Shown in pieces: positions 8,762-30,640 of a stretch of DNA of 59,866 bases. Under the pieces are notes generated by a model. That model was not told the DNA's origin. It ran no database searches and worked only from the letters and a program-made list of their open reading frames with translations. Made by a program: the position numbers and the translations under genes. How positions within the stretch are numbered: position 1 is the stretch's first letter; every line of letters begins with the position of its first letter. The DNA is from an uncultured Akkermansia sp. (lineage in GTDB: Bacteria > Verrucomicrobiota > Verrucomicrobiia > Verrucomicrobiales > Akkermansiaceae): assembly GCA_900548895.1 (NCBI GenBank), contig URLZ01000012.1:1-59866 (forward strand). Direction: 5' to 3'.

Positions 8762-8790
8762 GGCAAGGCGCGAGCTGAGGCAAGGCGCGA
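8757..8790. repeat. perfect 17-bp tandem duplication across a stop codon
   Basis: GCTGAGGCAAGGCGCGA occurs twice head to tail (8757-8773 and 8774-8790). The first copy includes the TGA stop of the HEAT-repeat gene. Confidence 0.85.
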
Positions 8791-8933
8791 AGGGCGGGGG
8801 AGCTCTGTCTCAAGCCCCTCCTCCCTCAGTGCTCCGCCTGACGTCGGCTCGAGCCCCGTGGAGCCCGGGATGAGCCGCAGGCGCTGCCATGCCGTATCCG
8901 TCGCAGCTCGCTCAGGCGACGCCGGCGATATGG

Positions 8934-8970
8934 CACGCGGGGCAGAGCTGTATCAGCCCTGCCCCGCGTG
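8934..8970. terminator. strong hairpin between convergent genes
   Basis: A perfect 12-bp stem, CACGCGGGGCAG (8934-8945) with CTGCCCCGCGTG (8959-8970), and a 13-nt loop. It sits between the plus-strand gene ending at 8761 and the minus-strand gene ending at 9017. There is no T-run on either strand, so termination would have to be factor-assisted. Confidence 0.5.
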
Positions 8971-9016
8971 AAAATCCGAAAAGCTTGTCGTTCTCGTGTC
9001 TGAGAGTGTTGCGCCC

Positions 9017-10123
9017 TCAGAGCGGAATATCCCCCGTCGGCGCCTGCCATTCATCGGGAGAAGCCGGCAGGGCCTGAGCCGGAGCCTGCCCAGAGGCCTC
9101 CTGGCGTCGGTTCGCCTCCGTATCCACCACGGGAGAACTGCCCTCGGGGCGATACTCCTTGCCGTCGACAATAATGCGCCCGCGGCGGCGCGGCTGCGCT
9201 GCCTGTTCGGGCTTCTTCTGCGCCTGAGGCTTCGGGGCGGCGGCCGCCTCACCATCCGCCTGCGTGAAGTCGCTCATATCGACCAGATCCTTGTAGCCGA
9301 AGGCATAGAGAACCAGATCCGGCAGATTGTCGCGCACGAGCTCGCGCACGTAGAAAGAGGCCTGACCCTCCGCCGAGCGCAGCACGAGGCGGCGAGCCGA
9401 GCCGCTGCCGTCCACGCGATAAATCGTCGCATTCGCGAAGTGCTTGCCCGCCTTCGTCGTCACATTGCCCACGCGCAGACCCGGCAGCAGGCCGAGCGCC
9501 ACGGCTCGGGCATCCTGGTCCGCTTGGCGGATCTCGTGCTGCACCCCGAGCGTCTGCGTGTGCAAACTCTTCAGCGTATTCTCACCCTCGGCCAGGCTCG
9601 CCTTGAGAGCCTCCACGCGGCCGTCGAGCTCCTTGAGCCTCGCCGCCTTCGCCAGGCTGATGTCCGCCGCCTCCGAGCGATTGAGCAACTCCTTCTGCTT
9701 GTCCGTCAGGCGGCGGTTCTCGGCCAGCTCCTGTTCAATCGGGCTGGGGATGCGATAGTTCGGCAGCTCCGTGTAGAGGAACCATCCCACATAGCCGATC
9801 GCGCCGATCAGGGCCAGCACCAGCACCGTATCCAGCACCACCGATCCGAATCGGGTCGGCTTCACCTCGGGTGCCGCGGCAGGGGCGGGCGTCACCGCAG
9901 CACTCGCCGCGGAGGCTGCCGTCGGCGCAGCCGCCGCAGTCCCGGCGACCGGAGCGGAGGACGCTGTCTGCGCCGGGGAAGAGGCTTGTTGCGCTGCCGC
10001 CGCGGGCTCGCCCGCGGGCTGTGCCGCTGCCGGCGCAGGCGCAGCGGCGGGGGCATCCGGGGCAGGGGAGGGAGCGGGCGCCGTGCGCGCCGTCCCGTTC
10101 ATCTCATCAGATTCAGAACTCAT
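9017..10123 (-). CDS. membrane-anchored protein with Ala/Pro-rich head and coiled coil, function unknown
   Basis: 368 residues. The first 90 or so are an Ala/Pro-rich disordered stretch ending in PTRFG. One membrane helix follows (SVVLDTVLVLALIGAIGYVG, about 94-113), then a coiled coil (about 125-200) and a small beta-rich domain (GNVTTKAGKHFANATIYRVD, about 215-270). A basic Pro/Ala-rich tail completes it. I have the impression that verrucomicrobial proteins often carry this kind of T-x-dG-x-x-y-x-n-x-x-V domain, but I cannot name the family. The start codon overlaps the stop of the upstream lipoprotein gene by four bases (ATGA), so the two are probably translationally coupled and act together at the inner membrane/periplasm. 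Function not recognised. Confidence 0.65.
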   Translation of the reverse strand: MSSESDEMNGTARTAPAPSPAPDAPAAAPAPAAAQPAGEPAAAAQQASSPAQTASSAPVAGTAAAAPTAASAASAAVTPAPAAAPEVKPTRFGSVVLDTVLVLALIGAIGYVGWFLYTELPNYRIPSPIEQELAENRRLTDKQKELLNRSEAADISLAKAARLKELDGRVEALKASLAEGENTLKSLHTQTLGVQHEIRQADQDARAVALGLLPGLRVGNVTTKAGKHFANATIYRVDGSGSARRLVLRSAEGQASFYVRELVRDNLPDLVLYAFGYKDLVDMSDFTQADGEAAAAPKPQAQKKPEQAAQPRRRGRIIVDGKEYRPEGSSPVVDTEANRRQEASGQAPAQALPASPDEWQAPTGDIPL

Positions 10124-15096: not shown

Positions 15097-16281
15097 ATGA
15101 AAGCTTCGATTCTCAAAACGATTGCCCTGAGCGGCCTTGCCTCCGCTCCGGTGCTCGCCGGCTCCCTCTATGAGACGGCTCCCCGCATCGGTCTGCCTGA
15201 GTCTTACGCCATCGCTTGGAGCGCCTACGCCAACGTCGGTTACGACAGCAACATCAACAGTACTCCCGATCGCCAGGAAAGCGCCTTCGTGCGCTTTGGC
15301 GTGAGGTCGTCCTACGGCGAGTTCGAGTCTGCGGACAAGATGTCCTACAATCTGGCTCTCGGTGCCATCTGCTACATGCGCAGCGCCTACAGCACGAACC
15401 AGAAACTCTTCCCGGACATTACCCTTTCCGGCAGCTATGAGCATCAGATGGGCTCCGGCTCCGTCTTCGGTGCATCGGCGACCGTGGCCTACCAGCCCGA
15501 GCCTGACTTCTCCAACGGCATTTCCTCGGCCCGTGCCCGTGGCAACACCCTGATGTGGAACGTCAACACGACGTACTCCCAGCCCATCGACAGCCGTCTG
15601 AGCTGGAACGTTGCCCTCGGCACGAGCGGCTACCGTTACATGAAGAGCGAGTACCGCTGGGATGACCGCCAGTACGTCACTGTCTCGGGCGGCCTCGCCT
15701 ACAAGAGTTCGACGACGACGACCTATGGCCTCAACGTGACCTATCGTTGGGATCAGCGTGACTTCGGTCTCGATGCTAACAACCTTTACCTCAACGCCAG
15801 CGTCAGCCACGCGATTGACTCGGTGTCCAGCTGCTCGGTCAGCATTGGTCTTCAGACTAAGTTCATCGACGGTGAAACCAACTTCTATCCCAACGCACGC
15901 TTGGGCTACAACCGCCGCCTGACGGAGGGTCTTTCCGCCAATATGTACCTGAGTCTCGACAACGAGAACATCGGCACGTATTACGGCTCGTCCAACTACC
16001 TCTCCGACATGACCTGGCGTCTCGGTGCGCGCCTCGACTACCGCATTTCCCCGCAGTTTGCGATCAACGGCGGTGTCGAGTGGCTCTACAGCAACTACTC
16101 GCGCGGCACCAACGGCCTTGGTAGCATGCACCAGAGCACGTATCTGCTGACCGCCGGCTTCAGCTACTCGATCACCCGCGATCTGGCTTGGACGGCTCAC
16201 TACAAGTTCACCGACGGCAGCCAGTGGGCCGGCGATTACACGCGTCAGATTGTTGAGACCGGCTTTACCTACAACTTCTGA
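15097..16281 (+). CDS. outer-membrane beta-barrel protein (BBP2-like) of the exopolysaccharide unit
   Basis: 394 residues with a signal peptide (KASILKTIALSGLASAPVLA). The mature chain is a series of alternating amphipathic strands rich in Tyr, Ser, Thr and Asn, with a repeated pattern of about 20-25 residues (for example YSQPIDSRLSWNVALGTSGY, and later strands near YGLNVTYRW). It ends in Phe (TRQIVETGFTYNF), as most outer-membrane barrels do for assembly by BAM. Barrels of the BBP2 type often stand beside Wzz/Wza genes, as here, and may form the outer-membrane exit for the polymer. A terminator follows, which could limit expression of the kinase gene behind it. Confidence 0.8.
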   Translation: MKASILKTIALSGLASAPVLAGSLYETAPRIGLPESYAIAWSAYANVGYDSNINSTPDRQESAFVRFGVRSSYGEFESADKMSYNLALGAICYMRSAYSTNQKLFPDITLSGSYEHQMGSGSVFGASATVAYQPEPDFSNGISSARARGNTLMWNVNTTYSQPIDSRLSWNVALGTSGYRYMKSEYRWDDRQYVTVSGGLAYKSSTTTTYGLNVTYRWDQRDFGLDANNLYLNASVSHAIDSVSSCSVSIGLQTKFIDGETNFYPNARLGYNRRLTEGLSANMYLSLDNENIGTYYGSSNYLSDMTWRLGARLDYRISPQFAINGGVEWLYSNYSRGTNGLGSMHQSTYLLTAGFSYSITRDLAWTAHYKFTDGSQWAGDYTRQIVETGFTYNF

Positions 16282-16302
16282 TTGACTTGAATTTGAGTCA
16301 TG

Positions 16303-16348
16303 CAGGGTGGAATCTTTCTGCGCGCAGATGGGTTCCACCCTGTTTTTT
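16303..16348 (+). terminator. intrinsic terminator/attenuator between barrel and kinase genes
   Basis: A perfect 10-bp stem, CAGGGTGGAA (16303-16312) with TTCCACCCTG (16333-16342), followed by TTTTTT. The loop holds a smaller CTGCGCGCAG hairpin. The Wzc-like gene begins 16 bp after it with no clear promoter between, so partial read-through is likely. Confidence 0.85.
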
Positions 16349-16363
16349 CCTTAAATATAACAC

Positions 16364-18583
16364 ATGGCATCGGCTAGCATAGAGGCGAAGGGGCGCGAAG
16401 GCGCGTTGCACGTTCAGGACTACCTGAAGGCACTGCGCTCGCGCTGGAAGCAAGTGGCGGGCGTATTCCTCCTCATCTTCCTCACAAGCGTCGTTTTGAC
16501 ACGCATCACGACGCCGGAGTACACCAGTATCACGAGTTTTTCAATCAGCCAGCCTGGTGAGCTGGTGCGCTACACCGCGGGCGGCGACGTGACGCCCATC
16601 GAACTGGCCGAGCAGCCGGGCCCGTCTTGGACGGAGACCCAGTACGAGATCCTCCTCTCGGAAAAAACACTCAAAGTCGTCGTCGAGAATCTCAAACTCC
16701 TTTCGGAGTGGGGCGTCGACGAACCGACCGCCATCAACATGCTTCGAGGCATGACGGACGTCGCCCCCCGCACGGCGACGAACATCGTCGACGTGAGCGT
16801 CACGCATGTAGACGCTCACATGGCGCAGAAAATCTGCGCCGCCATCCCCGAGGCCTACAGCGAGATGCGCGACCGCGACGAGCAAGGCCTCTTGGAGGAA
16901 GCCGTGCAAGTCCGCGAACAGATGCTCAAGAAGCAGGAGCAGGTCGTCCAGGACAAGAAGGACGCCATCATGAGCTTCATCCGCCAGGGTAAGTTCCCCT
17001 CACTGAACCTCTACGGCGGCAACAGCAGTGCTCCCCTCTATGAATCCGCCGAGTACCAGAGCTTCAACAAGCTGCTGTCTGACCGCGACACCATGGAGTC
17101 GGAGATTCGCCAGATGTCCGTCCACATCAGCAAGCTTCATGACCTCAAGGACGAGGCTCTTCTGAGCTACGTCACTCGCGCCGGCCTGCTCACGGCTGAA
17201 ACCTTCGGCACCGCCAAAGTCCGCAGCCTCAACGAGGACTACGAAAAGGCCAAGAAGACGCGCGAGGAGATGATCATGAACGGTTACGGTGAGCGCCACC
17301 CCCGCGTTCTCGCCATCGACCAGAACATCGAGACCACGAAAGGCGCCCTCATGGTCGAGCTCGTTGGCATGCGGGATGCCATGAAAGAGCAGCTCGACGT
17401 CAAACAGAAAGAATTCGAAGCCCTTGGTGCCCGTCTCAAGAAAGCCGAATCCGACCTGCGCATGAAGCAGGAAGACATCCAGAAAGTGCAGTCTGAACTG
17501 CAGGACCTCTCGGCGGAAGTCGAGCGACGCAACAAGATGCGCGATGACCTCAAGGCTGACCGCGCACGCCTCAGTACGCCGCGCCCCTCCATCAAGATGT
17601 ACAACACGGCCTCGCTGCCCTTGGTGCCCAGCAAGCCGAACTACACCCTCAACTTGGCCGTCGGCGGCGTCCTCGGTCTTCTGGCGGGCATCATCTCCGC
17701 TCTCGTCGCCGGCTACTTCGACACCTCGATCAAGACCCTTGAAGACGCCGAAGTCCAGCTCGGGCTGCCCGTCCTCGGCGTCATCCCGCGCGATGCCGGC
17801 ATCCTCATGCTTCAGGACCAGGAGGGCCCCGACGCCGAAGCCTACCGCATCCTGAGAACTAACATCGAGCTCAAGCGCTCTCTCTACAACGCCACCACAT
17901 TCGCGGTCGTCTCCTCCAATGCGGGTGAAGGTAAATCCACCACCGTCTGTAACCTCGCCTACGTCTGTGCTCAGTCCGGCTACTCCACGCTCATGATCGA
18001 TGCGGACATGCGCCGCCCGCGACTGGGCCGCTACGCCGAGGTCAGCTCCGAGCTCGGCCTCTCCGATTACCTCAGCCGCGACCTCGAGCTCAAGGACGTC
18101 GTGCTGCGCTCCAGCGTGCCGAACCTCTTCATCCTGCCCTCCGGAGCACCGCCGCTCGACCCCTCGGGCCTCATCTCCTCCTCGCGCATGGATCAGCTGC
18201 TCGTTGAAGCCCGCAAGCGCTTTGACATCGTGCTCTTCGACTCCCCGCCCGTGCTCGGCGTCAGCGACGCCTCCCTGCTTGTGCACAAGGCTGATGCCAC
18301 ACTGCTCGTGCTCCAGCCCAAGCGCATGCCGCTCAAGGCCCTGCTGCGAGCCAAGACCACCATTGAGAACGCCGGCGGCCGCTTGATGGGCCTCGTCATG
18401 AACAACGTCGACATCAGCGGCGACACCCAGTACCAGTACTACACAACCTACTACTCCTACTACCGCAGCGAAGATCGAGACGGCAAGAGCCCGTCGAAAG
18501 ACTCCGCCTCGAAGAAGCCTGCTGCTCCCGCCGCCTCCAGCGCAGGAGCGGAAGAGAAAAACAGCACCGAAGACCTGTATTGA
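16364..18583 (+). CDS. polysaccharide co-polymerase / tyrosine autokinase (Wzc-type)
   Basis: 739 residues combining a Wzz-like chain-length domain and a BY-kinase. The first membrane helix is at about 33-48 (VAGVFLLIFLTSVVLTRI); a long periplasmic coiled coil follows; the second helix is near 427-447 (LAVGGVLGLLAGIISALVAG). The cytoplasmic kinase has Walker A (SSNAGEGKSTT, about 517-527), Walker A' (LMIDADMRRPRLG) and Walker B (FDIVLFDSPP, about 622-631). The tyrosine cluster for autophosphorylation (YQYYTTYYSYY, about 690) lies near the end and is followed by a Ser/Lys/Ala tail. Phosphorylation cycles of such kinases control polymer length and export. The Wza-like gene follows by 7 bp. All catalytic motifs are present. 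Confidence 0.93.
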   Translation: MASASIEAKGREGALHVQDYLKALRSRWKQVAGVFLLIFLTSVVLTRITTPEYTSITSFSISQPGELVRYTAGGDVTPIELAEQPGPSWTETQYEILLSEKTLKVVVENLKLLSEWGVDEPTAINMLRGMTDVAPRTATNIVDVSVTHVDAHMAQKICAAIPEAYSEMRDRDEQGLLEEAVQVREQMLKKQEQVVQDKKDAIMSFIRQGKFPSLNLYGGNSSAPLYESAEYQSFNKLLSDRDTMESEIRQMSVHISKLHDLKDEALLSYVTRAGLLTAETFGTAKVRSLNEDYEKAKKTREEMIMNGYGERHPRVLAIDQNIETTKGALMVELVGMRDAMKEQLDVKQKEFEALGARLKKAESDLRMKQEDIQKVQSELQDLSAEVERRNKMRDDLKADRARLSTPRPSIKMYNTASLPLVPSKPNYTLNLAVGGVLGLLAGIISALVAGYFDTSIKTLEDAEVQLGLPVLGVIPRDAGILMLQDQEGPDAEAYRILRTNIELKRSLYNATTFAVVSSNAGEGKSTTVCNLAYVCAQSGYSTLMIDADMRRPRLGRYAEVSSELGLSDYLSRDLELKDVVLRSSVPNLFILPSGAPPLDPSGLISSSRMDQLLVEARKRFDIVLFDSPPVLGVSDASLLVHKADATLLVLQPKRMPLKALLRAKTTIENAGGRLMGLVMNNVDISGDTQYQYYTTYYSYYRSEDRDGKSPSKDSASKKPAAPAASSAGAEEKNSTEDLY

Positions 18584-18590
18584 TAACACC

Positions 18591-19214
18591 ATGACAAACT
18601 ACCTCAAAAGCATCTGCTGCCTGCTGCTCGGCCTTCTCATCGCCGTGCAGGGAACAGTCGGCGCCCAAGACGCCACCGAGCCTCGTGCCATCCGCGGCGG
18701 TATGATCACCATCACCGTCAAGAACATCCCTGAAGAAGACGCCGCCAACGTCAACGGACAGTACAACGTCAGCGTCTCCGACGGCACCATCGCTCTGCCC
18801 TATCTCTCCGGCCGCATCAGCGTCGCCGGCAAGACCTCGCGGCAGATCGAAGACATCGTGCGCAGCCAATACCTCGCGCAGAAAATCTACCAGCGCCCCA
18901 TCGTCCAGGCCATCGTCGCTAACACCGAGGAAATCGAGCAGGCCATGGCCCGCTACGTGACCGTGTCGGGCTACGTCAACACCAAGCGCAACGTCCGCTA
19001 CCGCCCGGGCATGACCCTGCTTGAAGCCATCCTCGAGTGCGGTGACATCTCGGACTACGGCTCGCGTCGCATACAGGTCACGCGTCGCAACGTCACCCGC
19101 ACCTACGACTACTTCAGCGCAGCCGATCGCGGGCTCAAGCTTCAGGCCGACGACAAGATCTTCGTCCAGAAGCGCGGCGCCCTCGAAGCGCGACCCAGCT
19201 CCATCGGGCGCTGA
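18591..19214 (+). CDS. polysaccharide export protein (Wza-like, Poly_export/SLBB)
   Basis: 207 residues with a signal peptide (LKSICCLLLGLLIAVQGTVG-AQ). The Poly_export domain spans about 40-110 (YNVSVSDGTIALPYLSGRIS and GKTSRQIEDIVRSQYLAQKI), and one SLBB-type domain about 122-200 (VTVSGYVNTKRNVRYRPGMT then LLEAILECGDISDYG). It is shorter than E. coli Wza (about 380) and lacks the C-terminal amphipathic helix that makes the outer-membrane pore, so the neighbouring beta-barrel could supply the pore instead. No lipobox is evident; the two Cys are inside the signal. It lies 7 bp after the kinase gene. Confidence 0.88.
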   Translation: MTNYLKSICCLLLGLLIAVQGTVGAQDATEPRAIRGGMITITVKNIPEEDAANVNGQYNVSVSDGTIALPYLSGRISVAGKTSRQIEDIVRSQYLAQKIYQRPIVQAIVANTEEIEQAMARYVTVSGYVNTKRNVRYRPGMTLLEAILECGDISDYGSRRIQVTRRNVTRTYDYFSAADRGLKLQADDKIFVQKRGALEARPSSIGR

Positions 19215-21154: not shown

Positions 21155-21291
21155 GCGCCCGCCCCCATCCGCCCCCGCGCCGCCGCGCCGCGCCCCGCCG
21201 CAAACCCCGCACCTCATCCTGCCGCCACCTCGCACGGCATCCGGCGCGCCACCCGGCTCAAGCCGAGCGTCGAGTAGCGTGCATAAACGCA

Positions 21292-21319
21292 TTGACAATC
21301 GTCCAAACGACGATACAAT
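21292..21319 (+). promoter_or_regulatory. promoter of the ArsR-family gene
   Basis: Consensus TTGACA (21292-21297), 16-bp spacer, TACAAT (21314-21319). The ATG at 21333 is only 13 bases beyond, so the leader would be about 6 nt. This promoter excludes the longer frame from 21279. Confidence 0.75.
21298..21314. promoter_or_regulatory. inverted repeat filling the promoter spacer; likely ArsR operator
   Basis: ATCGTC-CAAAC-GACGAT is a perfect 6-5-6 dyad lying between the -35 and -10. A repressor bound here would block RNA polymerase. Autorepression by the adjacent ArsR protein is the simplest reading. Confidence 0.6.
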
Positions 21320-21332
21320 CAGCCCGGAACCC

Positions 21333-21704
21333 ATGAACAGCCCCTCTCCCGACACCCCGGACACGCCCTCCTGCCACTGCGGCCCCCAACCCGCCGACGC
21401 CGTTGCCGCCATCCCCGCCACCCTCAGCGGCGTCACCCCCTACGCCGACTTCTTCAAAGCCCTCGGGCACCCCGTACGCCTCCTCCTCGTCCGCCTCCTG
21501 ATCGACGGCGAGCGCTGCGTCTGCGAACTCCGCGCCGACAGCAATCGAGACATGTCCACCATCTCCAGCCACCTCAACATCCTGCGCAACGCCGGCATCG
21601 TCCGCAGCGAACAGCGGGGCAAAAACATCTACTACAGCCTCGCCTGCCCCTGCCTCATCCCCATGCTCGCCTGCCTCAGCCGCAGCCCCCTCCCGCACCC
21701 TTGA
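21333..21704 (+). CDS. ArsR/SmtB-family repressor with three Cys-x-Cys motifs
   Basis: 123 residues. The winged helix-turn-helix core is FFKALGHPVRLLLVRLLIDG then RDMSTISSHLNILRNAGIVR. It has the ERCVCEL metal-site motif in the helix where classical ArsR/CadC/SmtB sensors place it, plus an N-terminal CHC (about 13-15) and a C-terminal CPC (YYSLACPCLIPMLAC). These six or more thiols suggest a soft-metal or arsenite sensor that leaves DNA when loaded. No efflux or detoxification gene is adjacent, so its targets apart from its own promoter are unknown. ATG 21333 is set by the promoter. Confidence 0.85.
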   Translation: MNSPSPDTPDTPSCHCGPQPADAVAAIPATLSGVTPYADFFKALGHPVRLLLVRLLIDGERCVCELRADSNRDMSTISSHLNILRNAGIVRSEQRGKNIYYSLACPCLIPMLACLSRSPLPHP

Positions 21705-22049
21705 GCGGTCTCCGTGATGTCTCGCTCAGTCAGCGACCTCGTAGACGTCGGCGTGGATACTTCAAACCTCCCGCGAGCTGGAATGCGGGAGCCCTGAGGG
21801 AAAGAGCGCGCAGATCCTCAAGAAATGCGCAGAAGTCGAGGCCATCCTACCCTAGCTGGATTACCACCAGCCTGGTCCTGTCATTCTGTTAGCTCTAGCA
21901 GACGATATATTCATGTAAAACCGATAGGCATTAAGACATCCAATACAGTAAAAACGAATGGCTTATTACTCAAAAAACTTGACTCTGTGGTGGTGTGATG
22001 GTAGCATAAGCATGGCTAAAGTATACACAGAGCACTAGTGCCCAAAGCA
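21705..22049. other. intergenic region at the left edge of the AT-rich block
   Basis: No gene was found in these 345 bp. The left part is GC-rich and carries a hairpin, CTCCCGC (21769-21775) with GCGGGAG (21785-21791), that may end the ArsR transcript but has no T-run. From about 21880 the sequence becomes AT-rich like the operon that follows. A promoter lies at 21979-22007. No tRNA end, integrase or direct repeat is visible. Confidence 0.6.
21979..22007 (+). promoter_or_regulatory. promoter of the Hsp70-module operon
   Basis: TTGACT (21979-21984), 17-bp spacer, TAGCAT (22002-22007), with TGG just before the -10. The start would lie near 22014, about 36 nt before the ATG at 22050. Confidence 0.5.
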
Positions 22050-24572
22050 ATGTCATTTTTTACATTATCAGACGACGACAGGAATACTGACCAAGTTCGT
22101 CCATTGCGCGAGACTCCTATCAGAAATGTAGAGTCGTGTATCCGTAAGCTTGTCGAGGAGAATCCCTATCGAGTGCTGGGGGTGTTTGCTAATTCAAGTC
22201 AAAAAGATTTGCTTGCGAATGCTAGCCGAATGTCTGCTTTTCTTCGAGTCAAGCGACAGATACCGTTTTCCTCAGATTCCATAGGAAATCTTAGTATAGT
22301 ACAGCGTTCTGAAGAAACAGTCAATCAAGCGAGAGCTGCAGTCTCTCTGCCTACCCAGAGATTGCAGCATGCTCTCTTTTGGTTTATGAAATCATCGCCA
22401 GAAGATTCTGAGGCGCTGAGTAGACTTGAGCAGGGGGATCATGTTGCGGCCGAGACGATATGGGAAGAAAAGAGCGATGTGACCGCGCGGCATAACTTGA
22501 TCTTATGTCGCTTTTTATCCTGTGAAGGAGAGCAGGCATTGAGGCTCTTAGGCTGTCTCTATGCGGAGTCAGCCGCAGAACTGGGAAGATTGGTCGATTC
22601 GAGTCTATGTCTAACTGAGGAGGACTTAGTAGACGTCTTTCTGTCCGAGCTCAACAAAGAATCTCCTGATAGCATCTTATCTCTAGCCGTATACGTCACC
22701 CGTCCCGTATGGAAGAGTAAACTATCGCGTTATTTGATGGATCGGCTGATCAAGCTCATCCAAGACTGGAAGGAGAAGCTGTCTGCTTCCGGGACGGTGT
22801 CTCTGGATGCTGCGAAGTCTCTTGTAATGGAGGCATTACCCATCCTACAAGGTCTGGAGTCATTGGTGGGTATAGATGATACGACGTACACGAATCTTTC
22901 CGATCAGGTTGCGACCGAGGTCTTGCAGAGCGCTATTGGGTACTTTAATCACCAGGAACCATCACATAGTATTGTTTCGGAGACTCTCCCCGTGATGGAA
23001 CTTGCCAGGAAAATAGCAAGGGGAAGTGCTGTACGTAAGAGATGTGACGAAAATATATTCGCGGTCCGAAAAATTACAAGCCAGTTACCTGATGAATCCT
23101 TGGGTGAAGAGGGGCAAAGCATATATCGCTTAATTAGGGAGATTCAGAAGCAGATCCCCACGGTTGACTCTCTTAACTCGTTCTTGAGGGAGGTGCGTCC
23201 CTATCTTAAAATTCTTCGTGGGCGTCTTGGGAAATCAAATGAAGGATATCTCAACCTGTCAGCGCGTGTGGTTGACTGTACTATCGATGGTCTTTTTCTG
23301 ATGCTTGCGAGAGCCGTAGAGCGGATGCAGCAGGAGGAAGAAAAATTCAAAAAAGCGCAAGTTATGGCGTCGTACGGCGCAGACCACGTGCTTGAGTCAG
23401 CTCTTTCATATCGACAAGCATATGCGGATGTCAGGCAAACTCTGGAAGAATCATGGAAAATCATGCGCTCTCTCGAGTTTTTCGACATGTTGAACTCTTT
23501 CCGTAGAGGAACTTATACCAAAAAGCGTTCGGACCTTAAGAAGATCTGCGTAGGGGCATCCATAAAGACAGTATATTTCACAGATTTCATCAGAAGATAT
23601 CCCAAGTGTTTTTGCGCTCTTATTATTCTTGCTATAGCTTTTCTGATGTTTCAAGCTAATGAGCTAGAGAGGTCTAGGTCGAGAGAGATCGACGTTATAA
23701 GACAAGATGAACTTAGAGAAAAACAAAGTCTGGAACGTAAGATAGCTCGTCAATACCATGAGGCAAAAACACTTGAGGACTACGAGAAATTAAGTAGAAG
23801 TTGTGCAGCTTATCTAAAAAAGTATAAGAAGAAATCTAGTAGGAGTATATTAGAAATAAGACGCAACGTAAAAAGGAACATAGAAGACATCAAAAGGGAA
23901 AGATTACAATCAAAGGCGAAAGAATTGGAGGACCGCTATGATCATGCTAAAACTAGTTTTCAGTATGATGTGATAGCTCAGGAAGCAAGAGATCTTGCAC
24001 GAGATATACCTTCGATGTCCAAATTGGCGAGTAGGGCAGATCAAAGAGCTGAAGACCTTCGACGGGAGGAGAAAGACAGAATACATGATCAGCTTTGGGG
24101 ATCCGAAAGTAGGGCATGGTCAACAGTGCAGACAAAGAAGTCTATAGAAGCCTATCGCAACTACTTAAAATATTATCCCAAGGGAATACATGCCGACAGG
24201 GTCAATAAGTTACTCATTGATGCAGAAGTTGATTCAGTTATCAAAAGTGGGCGATTCAGTGAAATTCCAGAATCAACTTATACCGAGACCTCAACGACGT
24301 CTTTTGCAAATATTGAGATATCAAACAATACTAGCTACACCTTAACTATTAGATACAGTGGATCTACTAGTACTAAACTGACGATCCCTCCACACAATAC
24401 TAAGACGATCGAACTTGTGCCGGCAACTTATAATATCGTTGCTTCTGTCAATGATTCAGACATCATGCCCTTGGCTGGCGCAGAGACTTATAAAGGAGGG
24501 AACTATCGTATAACGTATTATATCTCAACACGAACTGATTATAAACCACGATACAGAACTAACCTTTACTGA
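22050..24572 (+). CDS. membrane protein with degenerate J-like N-terminus, coiled coils and C-terminal beta domain (Hsp70 module, gene 1)
   Basis: 840 residues. Residues 38-70 (NPYRVLGVFANSSQKDLLAN then ASRMSAFLRVKRQ) look like helices I-II of a J-domain, but the HPD tripeptide needed to stimulate Hsp70 is missing. A mostly helical cytoplasmic part runs to about 515. One membrane helix follows (CFCALIILAIAFLMF, about 520-536), then a highly charged coiled coil (about 538-740) with KSIEAYRNYLKYYPKGIHAD in a TPR-like form. A small beta domain (about 752-835: SNNTSYTLTIRYSGSTSTKL onward) closes the protein. I recall proteins of the same layout in Bacteroidetes beside Hsp70 genes. The gene is AT-rich unlike its surroundings, and one base separates it from the next gene. 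A GTG four codons upstream is a possible alternative start. Role inferred as membrane co-chaperone or receptor. Confidence 0.75.
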   Translation: MSFFTLSDDDRNTDQVRPLRETPIRNVESCIRKLVEENPYRVLGVFANSSQKDLLANASRMSAFLRVKRQIPFSSDSIGNLSIVQRSEETVNQARAAVSLPTQRLQHALFWFMKSSPEDSEALSRLEQGDHVAAETIWEEKSDVTARHNLILCRFLSCEGEQALRLLGCLYAESAAELGRLVDSSLCLTEEDLVDVFLSELNKESPDSILSLAVYVTRPVWKSKLSRYLMDRLIKLIQDWKEKLSASGTVSLDAAKSLVMEALPILQGLESLVGIDDTTYTNLSDQVATEVLQSAIGYFNHQEPSHSIVSETLPVMELARKIARGSAVRKRCDENIFAVRKITSQLPDESLGEEGQSIYRLIREIQKQIPTVDSLNSFLREVRPYLKILRGRLGKSNEGYLNLSARVVDCTIDGLFLMLARAVERMQQEEEKFKKAQVMASYGADHVLESALSYRQAYADVRQTLEESWKIMRSLEFFDMLNSFRRGTYTKKRSDLKKICVGASIKTVYFTDFIRRYPKCFCALIILAIAFLMFQANELERSRSREIDVIRQDELREKQSLERKIARQYHEAKTLEDYEKLSRSCAAYLKKYKKKSSRSILEIRRNVKRNIEDIKRERLQSKAKELEDRYDHAKTSFQYDVIAQEARDLARDIPSMSKLASRADQRAEDLRREEKDRIHDQLWGSESRAWSTVQTKKSIEAYRNYLKYYPKGIHADRVNKLLIDAEVDSVIKSGRFSEIPESTYTETSTTSFANIEISNNTSYTLTIRYSGSTSTKLTIPPHNTKTIELVPATYNIVASVNDSDIMPLAGAETYKGGNYRITYYISTRTDYKPRYRTNLY

Positions 24573-24573
24573 A

Positions 24574-25740
24574 ATGTCTTTCCTGTTTTCTAGCTTTGCT
24601 TTACTTGTGGGTTCCTTCTTGTACCCCACTTTTTCTCCAGAAGGAGTGTCTGTTGGCGAACGTCTGAACCCTGATTCCTCTTCGTTTGGAACTGGGTCGC
24701 TAGTCTGGTCCTCTTCTCCAGACTGGGATGTAGTACTGCTCACACCAAGAGACATTAAAATATATTCAGAATTAATGAATATAAGGAAGAGTCTTGACTT
24801 GAAAGATAAGGAACTGGCAGGACTCAGAGATATTTCGCAAAAATTCGATCTTCGGATGGAGGAAGTAGAAAGTGGCACTTCTTTGCTTAAAGAGAAGTTG
24901 GATCGTTTGCAAGAAAAACTTTCTTCTTTACAAGATAAGAGTGGAATACAAGCTCAGCAGTTTAGAAAGGATTTAGACTTCCTTCAGCAATCTGAGCAGA
25001 GCCATGGAGACTCCATTTCCTCGTTACAGAGTGATTTTGCCCGTATTAGAACTGATTTTGACCAGTATCAGGAGAATTTGAGCAGATGTATTAATCGTCT
25101 GCAATGCGGCAATGATGACCAGCTTAGAAACATTCACAACATTCAGTATGAGCAGAATAAAAAGCTCGCGCAGATAGAAAATCTGCAAGATTATTTATGT
25201 GCGGGCCTTGTCGCGATGATCGTCTTATTTTTATCAGGTGTGGGCGTGGCCTTGCTTATGTTAAACCACCGCGTCAAGTGCATTTTTCAGCACTTGATCA
25301 AGAGAAGGCGCGTTGCTTGGGAACGCCTGAAGTGCGAAACTCTCGAGCTCACGTCGCAGTGTATGAAAAGCATCCAGGCGTCCTCTGTCTCTTCGCCTAC
25401 TGATAAGCCGGATCATAGCCCAATGCTTAAGTTCGCCAATGAGGTTGCTCGTATGGAGATGAACTTAAACCGAATGGATCCTTCCTCAAAGGGGTGGAAG
25501 CAGCTCATGAAGGGGCTGGAGCGCATAAAGAATAACTTTTCTGCTTCAGGCTATGATATGGTGCCGTTGCTCGGCCAGCCTTATCAAGAAGGACTGCGCG
25601 CAGACGTCGATTTTGTGGTGGACGATAAACTGCCTGCTGGGGAAAGGCGGATCACCTTTGTAACTCGTCCTCAAGTCAACTACAAAGGAGTCATAATCCA
25701 GAAATCCTGCATTACCGTTTCTCAAAATATATCACACTAA
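24574..25740 (+). CDS. membrane coiled-coil protein with GrpE-like C-terminal domain (Hsp70 module, gene 2)
   Basis: 388 residues. An N-terminal hydrophobic stretch (FLFSSFALLVGSFLY) may be a signal or anchor. Residues 60-205 form a long coiled coil. A membrane helix follows (AGLVAMIVLFLSGVGVALLML, about 209-229), then a basic segment and a C-terminal domain of about 100 residues: MLKFANEVARMEMNLNRMD, then a helix, then YDMVPLLGQPYQEGLRADVD and a segment ending PQVNYKGVIIQKSCITVSQ. The order helix - D/P-LGQP - V - P-G - Y-x-G-x-x-x-x-x-V-V follows the beta-wing of GrpE, the nucleotide-exchange factor of DnaK. This is pattern matching, not a database hit. It stands one base after gene 1 and 8 bp before the Hsp70 gene. 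Likely role: membrane-bound exchange factor. Confidence 0.65.
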   Translation: MSFLFSSFALLVGSFLYPTFSPEGVSVGERLNPDSSSFGTGSLVWSSSPDWDVVLLTPRDIKIYSELMNIRKSLDLKDKELAGLRDISQKFDLRMEEVESGTSLLKEKLDRLQEKLSSLQDKSGIQAQQFRKDLDFLQQSEQSHGDSISSLQSDFARIRTDFDQYQENLSRCINRLQCGNDDQLRNIHNIQYEQNKKLAQIENLQDYLCAGLVAMIVLFLSGVGVALLMLNHRVKCIFQHLIKRRRVAWERLKCETLELTSQCMKSIQASSVSSPTDKPDHSPMLKFANEVARMEMNLNRMDPSSKGWKQLMKGLERIKNNFSASGYDMVPLLGQPYQEGLRADVDFVVDDKLPAGERRITFVTRPQVNYKGVIIQKSCITVSQNISH

Positions 25741-25748
25741 TCTCAATT

Positions 25749-28250
25749 ATGAATCGAGTAAAAATTGATTATGGTATAGACCTCGGCACTACGAATTCAT
25801 CCATTTGCCGGATGGAACGAGGGGTGCCTACCATATGCAAGATCGAGGTAACAGATGACACAATGCCCTCGTGCGTTTTCTTCAACAAAAAGAAGAGTGT
25901 TATAGTGGGAAGCTCTGCTTATCAAGCCATGAAAAGCGATAAGAGACGAGCAACTCACGGCTGGTTGAGCGAGAGTTCGAATGCTTTCATCGAGTTCAAA
26001 AGAACCATGGGAACTGATCAGCAGTACAGGAGCTCCAACATGGGGCGTAGCTACAGTTCCGAGGAGCTCTCGGCAGAAGTCCTTAAAGCTCTCAAATCTT
26101 TCGTAACAGATGAAGAGATAAAAGCCGCCGTGATCACAGTGCCAGCCAAGTTCACAGTTAATCAAAAAACAGCAACGATGAATGCTGCTCACCTCGCCGG
26201 TTTTCAGAGGGTAGAGCTCTTGCAGGAACCCGTTGCTGCTTCTATCGCGTATGGATTAAGTGCCGATCAGAAGGATGGTCATTGGATGGTGTTTGACTTT
26301 GGCGGGGGAACCTTTGATGCAGCATTGCTTCGTGTTGAAGATGGAATCATACAAGTTTTCGACACTGCGGGAGATAACTATTTGGGCGGAAAGAATCTTG
26401 ACGAAGCTCTTGTCGATAGCATAATCATGCCCTCTTTGCTATCGCAATATTCTCTCAATAAGTGTCTCTCGGACCCTGCTCGTAAATCCGTACTTCGAGA
26501 TGCTTTGAAGACATATGCCGAGGATCTGAAAAATCAGCTTTCTTTCAAGCAAAAAGAGGACATACTCTCTAACCTCAGCGAGTTAGGGTGCGATGAACTT
26601 GGGGAAGAAATTGAACTGGATTTAACGGTGAATCAAGATGAGGCGTTCTCGGTGATGCGGCCTATCTTCCAGCGAGCTGTTAATATATGTCTTGATTTGC
26701 TCAAGCGTAATGGCATGAGCGGAGATCAGATTGATAAAATAATTCTTGTCGGAGGCCCCACGCATTGTCCACTCATACGCAATATGCTTGCAGAGCAGGT
26801 CTGCCCTAGAGTGGATTCGAGTATAAATCCGATGACAGCAGTATCGATTGGAGCAGCATTATATGCTTCAACGCTCGATAATGATGTCGTGGAAGAGATG
26901 CCTGCCTCTGATGTTCTTCGTTTCGAAATCGGGTATGAATCAACGACTGTTGAACTTCAGGAATGGGTGAGTATTCGATTAATCAAAGATCTATCCGGTG
27001 ATGCGCGTGCTGGCACTGTTTGGGTGGAGCTTGTGAGGGGAGATGAGGCTTGGTCTAGTGGGCGAACACCCGTCGATAATCAGGGCAACGTGATAGAATG
27101 CTCTCTGCAGGCGGGACGCCCCAATTCTTTCCTTGTGCGTGCATACAATGAAAAGGGCTCTCTCCTTAAGTGCTACCCAGAAGAAATCACGATACTCCAA
27201 GGCGCAAAAGTAGGGGCTGCTCCTCTTCCGTATAACATCGGTATTTCAGTTTGGGACGATCAGAGAGAGAAGGCAGTGTTTCACGTTCTGAAGGGGCTGG
27301 AGAAAAATACGCCCCTTCCAGCCGTCGGTGTCCGCAACGAGCTCCGTAGCACCACGGGGCTTCGCCCGGGAGTCGAGGACGATGTCCTTCTGATCCCCGT
27401 GTATCAGGCGGAAAACAACGCAGAGGGTAGCTTGGCCATTCTACATGAATACGTGGCTGACGTACGCATAAGTGGCGATGAAGTACCAGAGTATATACCA
27501 AAGGATAGTCCCGTTGATATTACGCTCAAGGTTGATTCTTCGGAGATGATGACAATGGAAGTATATTTCTCTCATCAAGACATCACCGTAAGTAAGAAAC
27601 TGGATACGTCACGGCAACAATCCATTCAAGAAGCGGCTGCACGAGTTTCGGAGTTTCTAGACACCGCGAAGGCCAGTCTGGCGCGTCTTGAGGCGGAAGG
27701 TTTAGATGTGAGCTCCCTTCGTGAGGAATTCAAATCTGTGCTTCAGGAGCAGAGAACAAGTAGCGAAAAGAAAGCGGTGTTGGAGCATGTAAAGCAAATG
27801 ATGAGACGCATAGAGGCTAAGGATTCAGAACAAGAATGGACGCGTCTTGTCTCTGCGATAGAGGAATATAGGGAAAAGCTGAGGCGAGCGCAGAGAGAGT
27901 TTGGTGACACTTCAAGTGCGTCTGCTCTCTCCAGGGTGGAAGAAGAGACAAGGAATGCTCTTTTGAGTGGGCAAGTCCCATTGGCGTCCAAAGCCTTGGA
28001 GTCTATGAAAAATATTTACTTCCATCTCACCCAGCTATATCAGTCTATTGGCATAATTCGGTATTGCGATGCACAGTATTCTGATATTGCGTGGAAGAAT
28101 CCGGCACGTGCTCGGCAACTTATAGATCAAGGACTGTCGCAAATATCCAAGTCCCCGAGTAAGGAGGCGCTGAGATCTATAGTCGTGGAGTTAGTGGAGT
28201 TGATTCCGGACGCGGATCTTAGGCGAACTTCTGTGGGACTTAGATTCTGA
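25749..28250 (+). CDS. Hsp70-family ATPase with inserted domain (Hsp70 module, gene 3)
   Basis: 833 residues. All three Hsp70 signatures are present: YGIDLGTTNSSI (about 8-19), VFDFGGGTFDAALLRVEDG with GDNYLGGKNLDEAL (about 180-220), and IDKIILVGGPTHCPLIRNML (about 328-347), so ATP binding is expected. After the nucleotide-binding domain comes an extra Ig-like segment (about 395-495) that DnaK lacks. Next is a substrate-binding beta part (LPYNIGISVWDDQREKAVFH onward, about 495-620) and a long helical tail to 833. It ends in GLRF rather than a DnaK/EEVD-type tail. DnaK is about 640 residues, so this is a divergent, longer relative. It is co-transcribed with J-like and GrpE-like partners. The housekeeping dnaK is not in this window. 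Confidence 0.88.
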   Translation: MNRVKIDYGIDLGTTNSSICRMERGVPTICKIEVTDDTMPSCVFFNKKKSVIVGSSAYQAMKSDKRRATHGWLSESSNAFIEFKRTMGTDQQYRSSNMGRSYSSEELSAEVLKALKSFVTDEEIKAAVITVPAKFTVNQKTATMNAAHLAGFQRVELLQEPVAASIAYGLSADQKDGHWMVFDFGGGTFDAALLRVEDGIIQVFDTAGDNYLGGKNLDEALVDSIIMPSLLSQYSLNKCLSDPARKSVLRDALKTYAEDLKNQLSFKQKEDILSNLSELGCDELGEEIELDLTVNQDEAFSVMRPIFQRAVNICLDLLKRNGMSGDQIDKIILVGGPTHCPLIRNMLAEQVCPRVDSSINPMTAVSIGAALYASTLDNDVVEEMPASDVLRFEIGYESTTVELQEWVSIRLIKDLSGDARAGTVWVELVRGDEAWSSGRTPVDNQGNVIECSLQAGRPNSFLVRAYNEKGSLLKCYPEEITILQGAKVGAAPLPYNIGISVWDDQREKAVFHVLKGLEKNTPLPAVGVRNELRSTTGLRPGVEDDVLLIPVYQAENNAEGSLAILHEYVADVRISGDEVPEYIPKDSPVDITLKVDSSEMMTMEVYFSHQDITVSKKLDTSRQQSIQEAAARVSEFLDTAKASLARLEAEGLDVSSLREEFKSVLQEQRTSSEKKAVLEHVKQMMRRIEAKDSEQEWTRLVSAIEEYREKLRRAQREFGDTSSASALSRVEEETRNALLSGQVPLASKALESMKNIYFHLTQLYQSIGIIRYCDAQYSDIAWKNPARARQLIDQGLSQISKSPSKEALRSIVVELVELIPDADLRRTSVGLRF

Positions 28251-28262
28251 TGATTCCTTGTC

Positions 28263-29924
28263 ATGGACATTGAAACCGGGCAACGTGTTGGCAAATATAC
28301 GGTCGTGTGTGCTCTGCCACACTTTGGGAAGCACAATACCTATTTTCGAGTCATCGATGACCAAGGACGAAAGCGATATATGTGTTTTCAGCCGGAGCCG
28401 TTCAGCTCTTGTGCTTTGCAAGAAAACGTTCAACATGTATGTCTCTTATCTCTCCTTGACCACGGCATAGTCGATGTCAAGGGAGTCAAGATGTTTTACC
28501 GTATCACCGATTTTGTAAGCGGTGAAACTCTGGCACAGAGACTGAAAAGGGAAGGTCGGTTAAGTGTTCATAAGAGCAAGCAGATAGTGCGTCAGCTGCT
28601 TTCGCTTGCCTATTGGCTACACTGTCAGCCCGGAGATTTATCATTGGGAGCGCTTAGCTCTTCGGATATTGTGCTGCACTTGAGAGATGATGGACTCAGC
28701 CTGCTGAGAACCCCTTCTGCTTCTCGTAAAGCTTGCCATGCTCCCGGGAGTGTGGCAGGTCAACCTGACCCTGAAAAGGACGATGTTTATCTTATTGGCA
28801 AATTGTTTTATTTAATGCTTTTCGGAGAAAACCCGAAGAGCATCACATCTGCATGTGGAAACGGTTTCGCCGCCTCTGAGAATTCAAGGGGTACGTGTTT
28901 ATACCCTTTACCTATACCCAAAGACGGTATCTTCGAGCTTAATGATGAAGTTATAAGGATATTAGAGCGAGCTCTTTCTCCTGATCTGAAAGAACGGTAT
29001 GACTCTGTTGCGGTCATGTTAAAAGATCTTGATCTTTCGGATCTGGATCACGGGGGGCAGATGTCGGTTCCAATTAATTCCGATTATGACTCTGGCCCTA
29101 TGGCCGTGGGGAAAATCGGTTCAGCTCGGGGGTTCGCTTCCATAGCAGGAATGAGCGAGCTCAAAAGCTTTTTGACAGCCAGCGTTATCAATCTCCTGCG
29201 TCATACGGATCGTGCAAAACGTTATCGTATACATATTCCCAATGGAATGTTGCTATATGGCCCTCCCGGATGTGGCAAGAGCTTTTTCGCCGAGAAATTT
29301 GCAGAGGAGGTCGGTTACAATAGTATGCATATAAAGGCCTCCGATCTTGCAAGTGTTTATGTTCACGGTACTCAGGGTAAGATAAGAGAGCTTTTCGAAC
29401 AAGCCCGCAATGAGGCTCCGACAGTCATCTGCTTCGATGAGTTTGATGCCATGTCTCCAAGTCGTAATGGGGCACTGAGCCCTCACCAATACGGAGAGGT
29501 AAATGAGCTTCTCTCTCAACTCAATAACTGTGGAAAAGACGGTATCTTTGTAATAGCGTCGACAAATAAACCGGAGCTGATTGATCCAGCTTTTCTACGA
29601 AGCGGAAGAATCGATAAAGTCGTTTACGTCCCAGAGCCAGACTCAGAGGCTCGGAGAGAGCTGTTTTCTCTTCATTTGCAAGGTCGTCCATGCGGTGATG
29701 ATATAGATACGTTGAGACTTGCAGATTTGACTCAGGGGTATGTATGTAGTGATATAGAGGCGATTGTTAACGAGGCAGCTATTTCCGCAGCAGAGCAAGA
29801 TGCCCCAATTCACCAGAGGGATATCGAGGAGGTGATAGAGAGGACTGCGCCATCTGTTAGCAAGAGAACACTTCAATATTATGAACTCATGAAACGAAGG
29901 CTGGATCTAGAGTACGGAAAGTAG
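28263..29924 (+). CDS. pseudokinase-AAA+ ATPase fusion (Hsp70 module, gene 4)
   Basis: 553 residues. Residues 1 to about 260 have the outline of a Hanks-type kinase: a C-lobe with KDDVYLIGKLFYLMLFGENP (the DVxSxG helix) and ALSPDLKERYDSVAVML at its end. The catalytic parts are gone: no VAIK lysine (RYMCFQPE), no HRD (GALSSSDIVLHLRDDG at that place) and no DFG. From about 290 there is a classical-clade AAA+ module: GPPGCGKS (Walker A, about 333-340), VICFDEFDAM (Walker B), VIASTNKPEL (sensor 1), LRSGRIDKVVYVPEPD (arginine finger) and a C-terminal lid. The ATPase should be active and the kinase part should act as a binding module. Last gene of the operon, 12 bp after the Hsp70 gene. Confidence 0.85.
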   Translation: MDIETGQRVGKYTVVCALPHFGKHNTYFRVIDDQGRKRYMCFQPEPFSSCALQENVQHVCLLSLLDHGIVDVKGVKMFYRITDFVSGETLAQRLKREGRLSVHKSKQIVRQLLSLAYWLHCQPGDLSLGALSSSDIVLHLRDDGLSLLRTPSASRKACHAPGSVAGQPDPEKDDVYLIGKLFYLMLFGENPKSITSACGNGFAASENSRGTCLYPLPIPKDGIFELNDEVIRILERALSPDLKERYDSVAVMLKDLDLSDLDHGGQMSVPINSDYDSGPMAVGKIGSARGFASIAGMSELKSFLTASVINLLRHTDRAKRYRIHIPNGMLLYGPPGCGKSFFAEKFAEEVGYNSMHIKASDLASVYVHGTQGKIRELFEQARNEAPTVICFDEFDAMSPSRNGALSPHQYGEVNELLSQLNNCGKDGIFVIASTNKPELIDPAFLRSGRIDKVVYVPEPDSEARRELFSLHLQGRPCGDDIDTLRLADLTQGYVCSDIEAIVNEAAISAAEQDAPIHQRDIEEVIERTAPSVSKRTLQYYELMKRRLDLEYGK

Positions 29925-29960
29925 GATGACAACCAGTGCCAAGCCTGCTGCTCATTTAGT

Positions 29961-29988
29961 TTGCGGAAGGCTACAAAAATCGTATCCT
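29961..29988 (+). promoter_or_regulatory. promoter of the candidate small RNA
   Basis: TTGCGG (29961-29966), 16-bp spacer, TATCCT (29983-29988). The expected start near 29995 falls two bases before the long closing stem of the RNA. Confidence 0.45.
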
Positions 29989-29994
29989 GCCCCT

Positions 29995-30118
29995 ATGCTT
30001 GCTCTCTTTGGCTGCTCAGGATTCAAGAGTGTCCCACGGCGTTGCAGTATGTGAGGAACTTAGGTAGGAGCTCTTCAGCGTGGGTAGGCGCACGGAGCGG
30101 GCGCTAAAGAGACCAAGC
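29995..30118 (+). ncRNA. candidate structured RNA of about 125 nt
   Basis: The ends pair over 16 positions, 29997-30012 (GCTTGCTCTCTTTGGC) with 30103-30118 (GCTAAAGAGACCAAGC), with one C-C mismatch and one G-U pair. Inside, CCCACG pairs with CGTGGG and GTG with CAC, giving one long interrupted hairpin. A promoter stands at the right distance, and no start-stop frame explains the pairing. The size and rod shape would suit a 6S-like RNA or another housekeeping or regulatory RNA. The SRP RNA core sequence is absent. The 3' end is uncertain because no T-run follows. Confidence 0.45.
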
Positions 30119-30580
30119 TAGGCGGGGTGACGCATTCGACGGTGAATCCCGTCTGCACATGTTGACCGGCGCATGGGGCTCTCACGCCTCCAGCCCCGCG
30201 CAGTAGAACTCGTGTGCGCTGCCTGTATCAGCCGGCACTTTAACAGGCAAGGATGGGCGAGGTTTGTGAGGGGGGATGTTTTGGCACGGAGGAAGGAAGC
30301 GGCGGGTTTGCGGGCTCGATACGGCGGATTGAACGGCTCGGTGGGCGGAGTCGAGAGCCGGGGCGTGGAGGCTGCGGGCCGCGCGAAGCGGGGCCGGGGT
30401 GCGGGAGAGTTCGCGGCCGTAGCGCTTGCCGCGGAGGCGGAAGTGACGCGGGTGATGACGCTGTTGATGGGTTATTCTCAGTCTGTTGGGGCGGTTTTGC
30501 GGTGCTCGGGGCAGGGGACTCGGCGGTGGGGGCTCCGTGCCGAGGGGCGGAGGAAAAATCCGCTCGGTGCAAATTTGGGG

Positions 30581-30609
30581 TTGCAAGGAGGAAAAAGCTG
30601 GGGTAGAAT
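30581..30609 (+). promoter_or_regulatory. promoter of acpP
   Basis: TTGCAA (30581-30586), 17-bp spacer, TAGAAT (30604-30609). The transcript would begin near 30616, giving a leader of about 25 nt before the ATG at 30641. Confidence 0.7.
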
Positions 30610-30640
30610 AGCCGCACTTAAAACCTCAGTCATAAATCTT

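Follow-up and report, generated by a model that had tools for sequence, protein, structure and literature searches.

A foreign operon in an Akkermansia genome predicted to encode a second Hsp70 machine, tied to the membrane and supplied with its own co-chaperones

As described in PMC8215388, Hsp70 machines run via a single J-domain switch, in which the HPD motif of the J-protein acts on the Arg167 site of the Hsp70. D35 of this motif bonds R167 and Q378 of DnaK, the DnaK residues E206, D211, E217 and D477 contact the J-domain as well, and R167 additionally serves the interdomain clamp (PMC8215388). The DnaK paralogues of Myxococcus are described as having different clients, one paralogue being more membrane-associated (PMC11019930), and a chaperone has been placed in phage sensing for bNACHT25 and DnaJ (PMC12169576). 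Here we describe an operon found in a 59,866-nucleotide stretch of DNA from an uncultured Akkermansia sp. (contig URLZ01000012.1), referred to below as the window. Four open reading frames (ORFs) on the + strand, P1 to P4, occupy positions 22038-29924 with a spacing of 1, 8 and 12 bp; this layout had been given in an earlier reading of the letters (the first-pass annotation) and was confirmed by the ORFs. The predicted products are a J-like membrane protein (P1), a membrane coiled-coil protein ending in a GrpE-like domain (P2), an Hsp70 with an insert (P3), and a pseudokinase fused to an AAA+ ATPase (P4). By hydropathy, P1 and P2 each have a single transmembrane segment (TM), and P3 and P4 have none. 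We consider the chances slightly better than even that the four genes form a horizontally spread operon encoding a second Hsp70 machine that is tethered to the membrane and has co-chaperones of its own, most likely serving as a conflict module.

A genome-collection scan with 26 P2 relatives as queries gave 49 loci, labelled mostly Bacteroidota, many of them from gut or rumen, and one Akkermansiaceae; four with other labels (L007, L021, L041, and L047) may be binning errors. P3 lay directly after P2 in all 49 loci (median gap, 12). P1 was upstream of P2 in 44, the five misses sitting 132 to 868 bp from a contig end, and P4 followed P3 in 38, with less than 1.7 kb of downstream sequence for 4 of the 11 misses. 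A TerB-like gene of about 160 aa came after P4 (after P3 in L039) in 32 of the 49 loci, for example, at L010:15016-15504; neither the window nor L001 was found to have one. Among four of these TerB-like proteins, the Pfam TerB match was over the cut-off in one, below it in two, and absent in one. TerB proteins are assigned to Ter systems in PMC7824862.

Since P2 had been the starting point of that scan, P2, P3, and P4 were searched for separately in a sample of 395 Bacteroidota genomes. P2-type genes were found in six genomes, one of which was the seed genome, P3-type genes were found in the identical six, and P4-type genes were found in those six and in one genome matched in the AAA part only. 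All five non-seed genomes carry the cassette: it is complete with TerB in L143, L144, and L145, P1 to P4 stand at a contig end in L146, and L147 has the order P3-P4-TerB-P1, with P2 matched on a separate contig. The pairwise distance matrices of P1 to P4 over 38 sets (37 loci and the window) correlated at 0.57 to 0.83, host kinship being uncorrected. The four genes thus travel together beyond chance, and the co-travel check named in the first-pass annotation did not refute it. The opposing view, that an Hsp70 paralogue merely happens to stand beside unrelated membrane genes, has practically no probability left, given the set in the 49 loci and in 5 of 5 further genomes and the correlated distances; it is refuted by the co-occurrence. 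The plasmid collection gave one record for P2, on Haliscomenobacter pHALHY02, and a viral-contig scan and a phage collection gave no P2 match.

The number of P1-family genes varies. Twelve loci have at least two P1-family ORFs ahead of P2; among these, L001 and L018 have partly split ORFs, and the second ORF of L043 matches the P1 C-terminal part only. In L001, the P1 of the Akkermansiaceae relative is split across two frames (7005-9373). A reduced form without P4 and TerB was seen in L027, L029, and L042 (and, near contig ends, in L026, L030, and L038); it consists of up to four P1-family genes, a P2 of 171 aa, and P3, and it is followed by genes shared among these loci that by eye resemble purM, prfA, and pyrF.

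The window cassette lies in an interval between arsR and acpP (21705-30640) that was not found in relatives and whose exact ends were not found. Its low-GC (guanine plus cytosine) core extends over about 21.7 to 29.95 kb, the GC fraction per 1-kb window being 0.40 to 0.51 at 22 to 29.9 kb versus 0.59 to 0.71 before 22 kb and past 30.5 kb. At third codon positions (GC3), the values were 0.427 to 0.485 for P1 to P4 versus 0.907 for coaX, 0.858 for arsR, and 0.835 for lysM. Because the right-hand spacer preceding acpP has a GC fraction of 0.609, the foreign DNA may stop at around 29.95 kb. An empty site, with coaX and acpP adjacent, was observed in seven of the eight relative stretches read; coaX was not found in the eighth (L134). 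One of the seven, genome G001, has the empty site here (L141) and its own cassette elsewhere (L001, L060), and it was the only 1 of 145 genomes of the family Akkermansiaceae with a close P3 (E value of 1e-100 or better). From the low GC and GC3, the empty sites in relatives, and the cassette elsewhere in G001, it was concluded that the cassette was gained at the window site; in G001 it was apparently gained separately. No direct repeats of at least 10 bases were found between the insertion flanks. An ArsR-type regulator gene with native GC3 (21279-21704) stands between coaX and the insertion; in the relatives read, none was found in the coaX-acpP interval. Farther upstream, positions 15097-19214 hold probable exopolysaccharide export genes (Wzc- and Wza-like by eye), which are beside coaX in several relatives.

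P3 (25749-28250, + strand, 833 aa) was assigned from Pfam and from alignment to DnaKs. The Pfam HSP70 match had an E value of 2.8e-67; against the DnaK equivalog TIGR02350, P3 scored 234.4 bits, with a curated cut-off of 822.55. Residues were counted over 45 loci and the window, omitting L012, L018, L032, and L035, where P3 is cut or split, and 10 canonical DnaKs from cassette genomes served as the reference; DnaK positions were placed by motif. The ATPase motifs (DLGTTN, E171, and DFGGGTFD positions) were kept in 45 or 46 of 46 sequences, the L of DLGGGTFD being F in all 46. Relative to DnaK, P3 has about 110 extra residues between the linker and the β part of the substrate-binding domain (SBD-beta), and after this insert, the alignment with the 10 canonical DnaKs gave an SBD-beta-like region and a helical end. 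The first-pass description of a full Hsp70 with an extra domain thus held, and P3 is, by its motifs, an Hsp70 with predicted ATPase activity.

The J-docking surface of P3 proved to be largely exchanged. The site of DnaK R167 was E in 45 of 46 sequences (E156 in the window) and D in the remaining one, N170 was replaced by Q in 46/46, E206 by K or R in 45/46, and Q378 by Y or F in 46/46. At the E217 site, E was present in none of the 46; of the 45 sequences read at the D477 site (L013 not counted), 35 have K and none has D. The D211 site was retained (D or E in 45/46). The plasmid P3, which stood outside these alignments, has the identical E, Q, and K substitutions.

P1 (22038-24572, + strand, 844 aa) starts with GTG, with an ATG 12 bases downstream. 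From the ORF, AlphaFold2 model (mean predicted local distance difference test score, 89.2), hydropathy, and profile data, it was divided into a J-like domain (about residues 38-115), a helical-repeat middle, a TM (522-540), helices, and a C-terminal beta-sandwich (about 745-830). No Pfam family was over the cut-off for P1 or P2. The model helices in the J-like part are at 43-46, 55-70, 92-101, and 105-112; whole-model fold searches led to helical repeats, the J-like part being outside their reach. An 85-residue stretch from 56 P1-family proteins was therefore judged by profile against 15 canonical J-domains and scored 30.9 (E value of 1.5e-5, a single comparison), with a top score of 19.75 among 100 column shuffles. 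The canonical domains had been chosen by an HPD-containing pattern in cassette genomes, giving 15 true J-domains from 20 loci; the score was 26.4 in a first comparison that included a false J-domain (L117) and 30.9 once this was removed. The N-terminal part of P1 is J-like by this comparison. The J-like start NPYRVLGV seen in the first-pass annotation is present, and the pattern recurs in 55 further P1-family ORFs; since the pattern that selected the 56 stretches required an NPYR-LGV start, this conservation is partly by choice. The other 9 of the 65 P1-family ORFs (window included) comprised split ORFs, ORFs truncated by a contig end, ORFs with a late start, and ORFs that matched the C-terminal part only.

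None of the 56 J-like stretches has HPD, and it is likewise missing from residues 1 to 200 of each of the 64 P1-family ORFs in the loci. In its stead is a longer loop with K or R (R73 in the window) in 56/56 and D (D80 in the window, at the place of HPD) in 55/56. Without HPD, and facing a P3 whose J-docking surface is mostly altered, P1 cannot play its predicted J role in the canonical way. The side bearing the J-like domain is inferred to be cytoplasmic from the domain itself and not from the charge count, which is three K/R before the TM and four after it. The C-terminal end is variable: the window's P1 and some other relatives have the beta-sandwich, and many relatives have a hydrophobic tail (by eye), often with a Gly-Cys start. 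Hydrophobic tails starting with Gly-Cys were also seen in accessory proteins (L003:13083-13733, L007:13115-13732, and L004:13400-14371) and in P1 of L010, L012, and L013, and the plasmid P1 is annotated CFI-box-CTERM. In L013 (15397-18210), the J-like stretch lies midway in a 937-aa protein whose N-terminal part resembles BspA-type leucine-rich repeats by eye.

P2 (24574-25740, + strand, 388 aa) was assigned from its ORF, model, fold, and hydropathy. It comprises a long coiled coil (model helix 61-259), a TM at 212-230, and a GrpE-like domain at 282-384. GrpE was the best fold match of the model, with its helix pair and beta-wing. GrpE identity by sequence alone was tried and rejected: hhalign gave a score of 15.5 (E value of 0.1), colinear over 90 columns, and 40 column shuffles reached 21.9. 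Pfam GrpE (PF01025) was not listed for P2 up to an E value of 0.5, and a PDB sequence search with the P2 alignment gave coiled-coil or unrelated proteins and no GrpE among the best 60 of 81 matches. The GrpE assignment of the first-pass annotation therefore rests on fold, the shuffles having outscored the sequence-profile comparison; of the two folds that it had asked for, GrpE was seen in the P2 model, and support for the J-domain came from the profile. As modelled, P2 carries its GrpE fold on a coiled coil that crosses the membrane, with a predicted role in nucleotide exchange. Five K/R occur in the 15 residues after the TM and one occurs before it, so the C-terminal domain should be cytoplasmic. 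The suggestion that long coils of P1 and P2 pair on the far side of the membrane did not survive as a core feature, because the P1 coil is not general among relatives and the P2 coil is absent in the clade with the 171-aa P2. The match of P2 to BnzB of PADLOC had an E value of only 0.003 and was via the coil.

A canonical DnaK, DnaJ, and GrpE set was present besides the cassette in 10 of 10 cassette genomes tested, each genome having two Hsp70s in all (E value of 1e-20), one Pfam GrpE, which is the canonical gene, and at least one canonical J-protein. The idea that J-protein, exchange factor, and Hsp70 are duplicated thus stood as to the presence of a second set and fell short for the J role. 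The machine is apparently insulated and rewired relative to the normal DnaK system, and we hold with good confidence that it is an insulated membrane Hsp70 machine. P3 would work only with its own partners, which is suggested by the exchange of most of its DnaJ-docking residues while the J-like loop retains K/R and D; the exchanged surface would keep DnaJ away. The same replacements, at R167, N170, E206, E217, and Q378, could also mean that P3 has left the J-cycle, with the J-like domain a mere structural adaptor and P3 plus P2 a scaffold or nucleotide-gated switch from which P4 would receive its signal. The loss of HPD, the extra domain with which the substrate-binding part begins, and the pseudokinase on P4 speak for such an exit, but the near-invariant K/R and D of the J-like loop and the retained SBD-beta-like region and helical end of P3 do not, and we regard it as improbable.

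P4 (28263-29924, + strand, 553 aa) was assigned from Pfam and a motif alignment as an N-terminal pseudokinase and an AAA+ part at about 310-525, with a Pfam AAA match (E value of 5.9e-33) plus an AAA lid. Over 38 P4 proteins, the motifs which we take to be Walker A, Walker B, sensor 1, and the arginine finger were found as follows: Walker A in 38, Walker B DE in 37 (EE in L048), sensor 1 TN in 37 (SN in L041), and R-x-G-R in 38. The window P4 retains neither the catalytic lysine nor HRD nor DFG. The HRD site over the 38 proteins is H-x-E in 25 and H-x-D in 2, and DFG is present in 25; L001, like the window, has lost them all. The first-pass reading of a pseudokinase fused to an active-looking AAA+ ATPase is borne out for the window, and the kinase-like domain of the family is dead or doubtful. 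In PADLOC, the AAA+ part of P4 was nearest to IetA (5.2e-33), and the kinase part of a relative was nearest to mad6 (2.5e-42) and PD-T4-6. Because PADLOC comprises defence proteins only, these matches are no evidence of defence by themselves.

For the insulated machine, the following cycle is proposed. At the inner membrane, P1 would recruit P3 to a client, P3 would clamp that client, and the GrpE-like end of P2 would release ADP and so reset P3. Control of P2 may come from outside the cytoplasm, by way of its coil. With its pseudokinase as the switch, P4 would unfold either the client or the complex. A conflict (anti-phage) role, in which the machine senses or dismantles foreign proteins at the inner membrane, is suggested by mobility, patchy spread, and some of the neighbours, and we judge its chances to be even. 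A more specific version is tentative: P2 would be a transmembrane receptor acting by nucleotide exchange, by which an outside event (e.g., phage entry) switches the private Hsp70. The charge swap would let only the HPD-less J-like partner drive this Hsp70, which would pass clients to the pseudokinase-gated AAA+ motor of P4, making the cassette an orthogonal Hsp70 machine that acts as a mobile immune sensor and disassembler.

The neighbours bear on this role in both directions. On pHALHY02, the five-gene cassette (P1 to P4 and TerB) has SIR2 and WD40 genes on one side and BREX genes on the other; McrBC-like, DUF4433, and macro-domain genes lie farther out. Downstream of the cassette in L144 are DUF6804, HsdM, HsdS, and a ThsB-like TIR protein; L145 has a phage-type integrase, L146 has a neighbouring NACHT protein that weakly matches DUF4062, and two neighbour genes of L143 that were scanned for defence gave no match. 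Defence genes are thus near 3 of the 5 further loci with readable flanks (the plasmid and L143 to L146; L147 was too short) and an integrase is near one, which is a lead and not a count, as the flank genes were picked by eye. The small membrane protein DUF6804 adjoins the cassette at L144:14226-14522 and L145:5982-6281 (Pfam), and DUF6804-like starts were noted by eye in family c5 (L002, L015, L046, L048, and L049), partly on longer proteins.

A wider survey of neighbours weighs against this lead. The neighbours of the 49 loci, 194 genes after those of one cluster were kept once (from 222), gave scattered PADLOC matches among the best 25 families of each set and no clear defence enrichment: 77 families were matched by 96 neighbour genes and 37 by the other 98, versus 37 by 97 random genes (97 of 245 ORFs, from 9 of 10 genomes), the comparison counting families and not genes. 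The Pfam families of 96 of the 194 neighbours were mostly ordinary among the best 25 of 112. The neighbour check named in the first-pass annotation thus found defence genes at some of the further loci and no general excess. The ordinary families are what would be expected if the cassette serves envelope or membrane quality control with no part in immunity, P1 binding misfolded inner-membrane or exported proteins, P3 holding them, P2 recycling P3, and P4 extracting the client. The membrane tie of both co-chaperones suits this reading, as do the reduced clade, in which the Hsp70 part persists next to shared genes without P4 and TerB, and the extra P1-family ORFs, up to four, which could be client adaptors. 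It agrees poorly with a rare and patchy distribution (6/395 and 1/145 genomes), foreign composition and empty sites, and defence or integrase neighbours in 4 of the 5 further loci with readable flanks, and was ranked second to the conflict role and considered rather unlikely.

A natural Hsp70 family in which the J contact and most of what surrounds it are exchanged, and whose co-chaperones sit in the same operon, would open the evolution of J-Hsp70 specificity to direct testing and provide an orthogonal chaperone. The GrpE fold on a transmembrane coil suggests that cells can use nucleotide exchange as a signalling output. Should the neighbours be a sign of defence, bacterial immunity would gain a complete chaperone cycle.

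No description of this gene set was recognised in searches of the open-licence literature, and the closest systems each share a part of it, the nearest being GAP1-N2 conflict systems and CoCoNuTs. Shango and Bunzi, as described in PMC10952713, have a TerB domain protein, the remaining set being different; PADLOC matched none of the five TerB-like proteins tested. IetA resembles the AAA+ part of P4, and MAD6 and PD-T4-6 resemble the kinase part of a relative; P4 fuses both, with the kinase dead in the window. CoCoNuTs (PMC11090510) have an Hsp70-like CnuD in a predicted defence operon, but they are described as McrBC-type, and CnuD as barely hydrolysing ATP, whereas P3 keeps its ATPase motifs. 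HscA-HscB and HscC are likewise specialised Hsp70s that co-evolved with their own J-protein; in the account of PMC8215388 they no longer need an exchange factor, whereas the cassette encodes a membrane protein with an exchange-factor fold. The GAP1-N2 GTPase conflict systems share a private Hsp70, GrpE, and J-domain set and the putative conflict-type neighbourhood; as described in PMC7159879, their J-proteins are DnaJ-FNIII proteins, and they are GTPase-centred and found mostly in actinobacteria and firmicutes, and that description mentions neither a transmembrane GrpE nor a pseudokinase-AAA+ protein. The likeness to DnaK-DnaJ-GrpE itself lies in the Hsp70, J-like, and GrpE-like parts, through the ATPase motifs and the GrpE fold. 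Unlike that system, the cassette has co-chaperones that are both predicted membrane proteins, lacks HPD, has most of the J-docking residues replaced, and adds an Hsp70 insert, an AAA+ pseudokinase, and a TerB-like partner.
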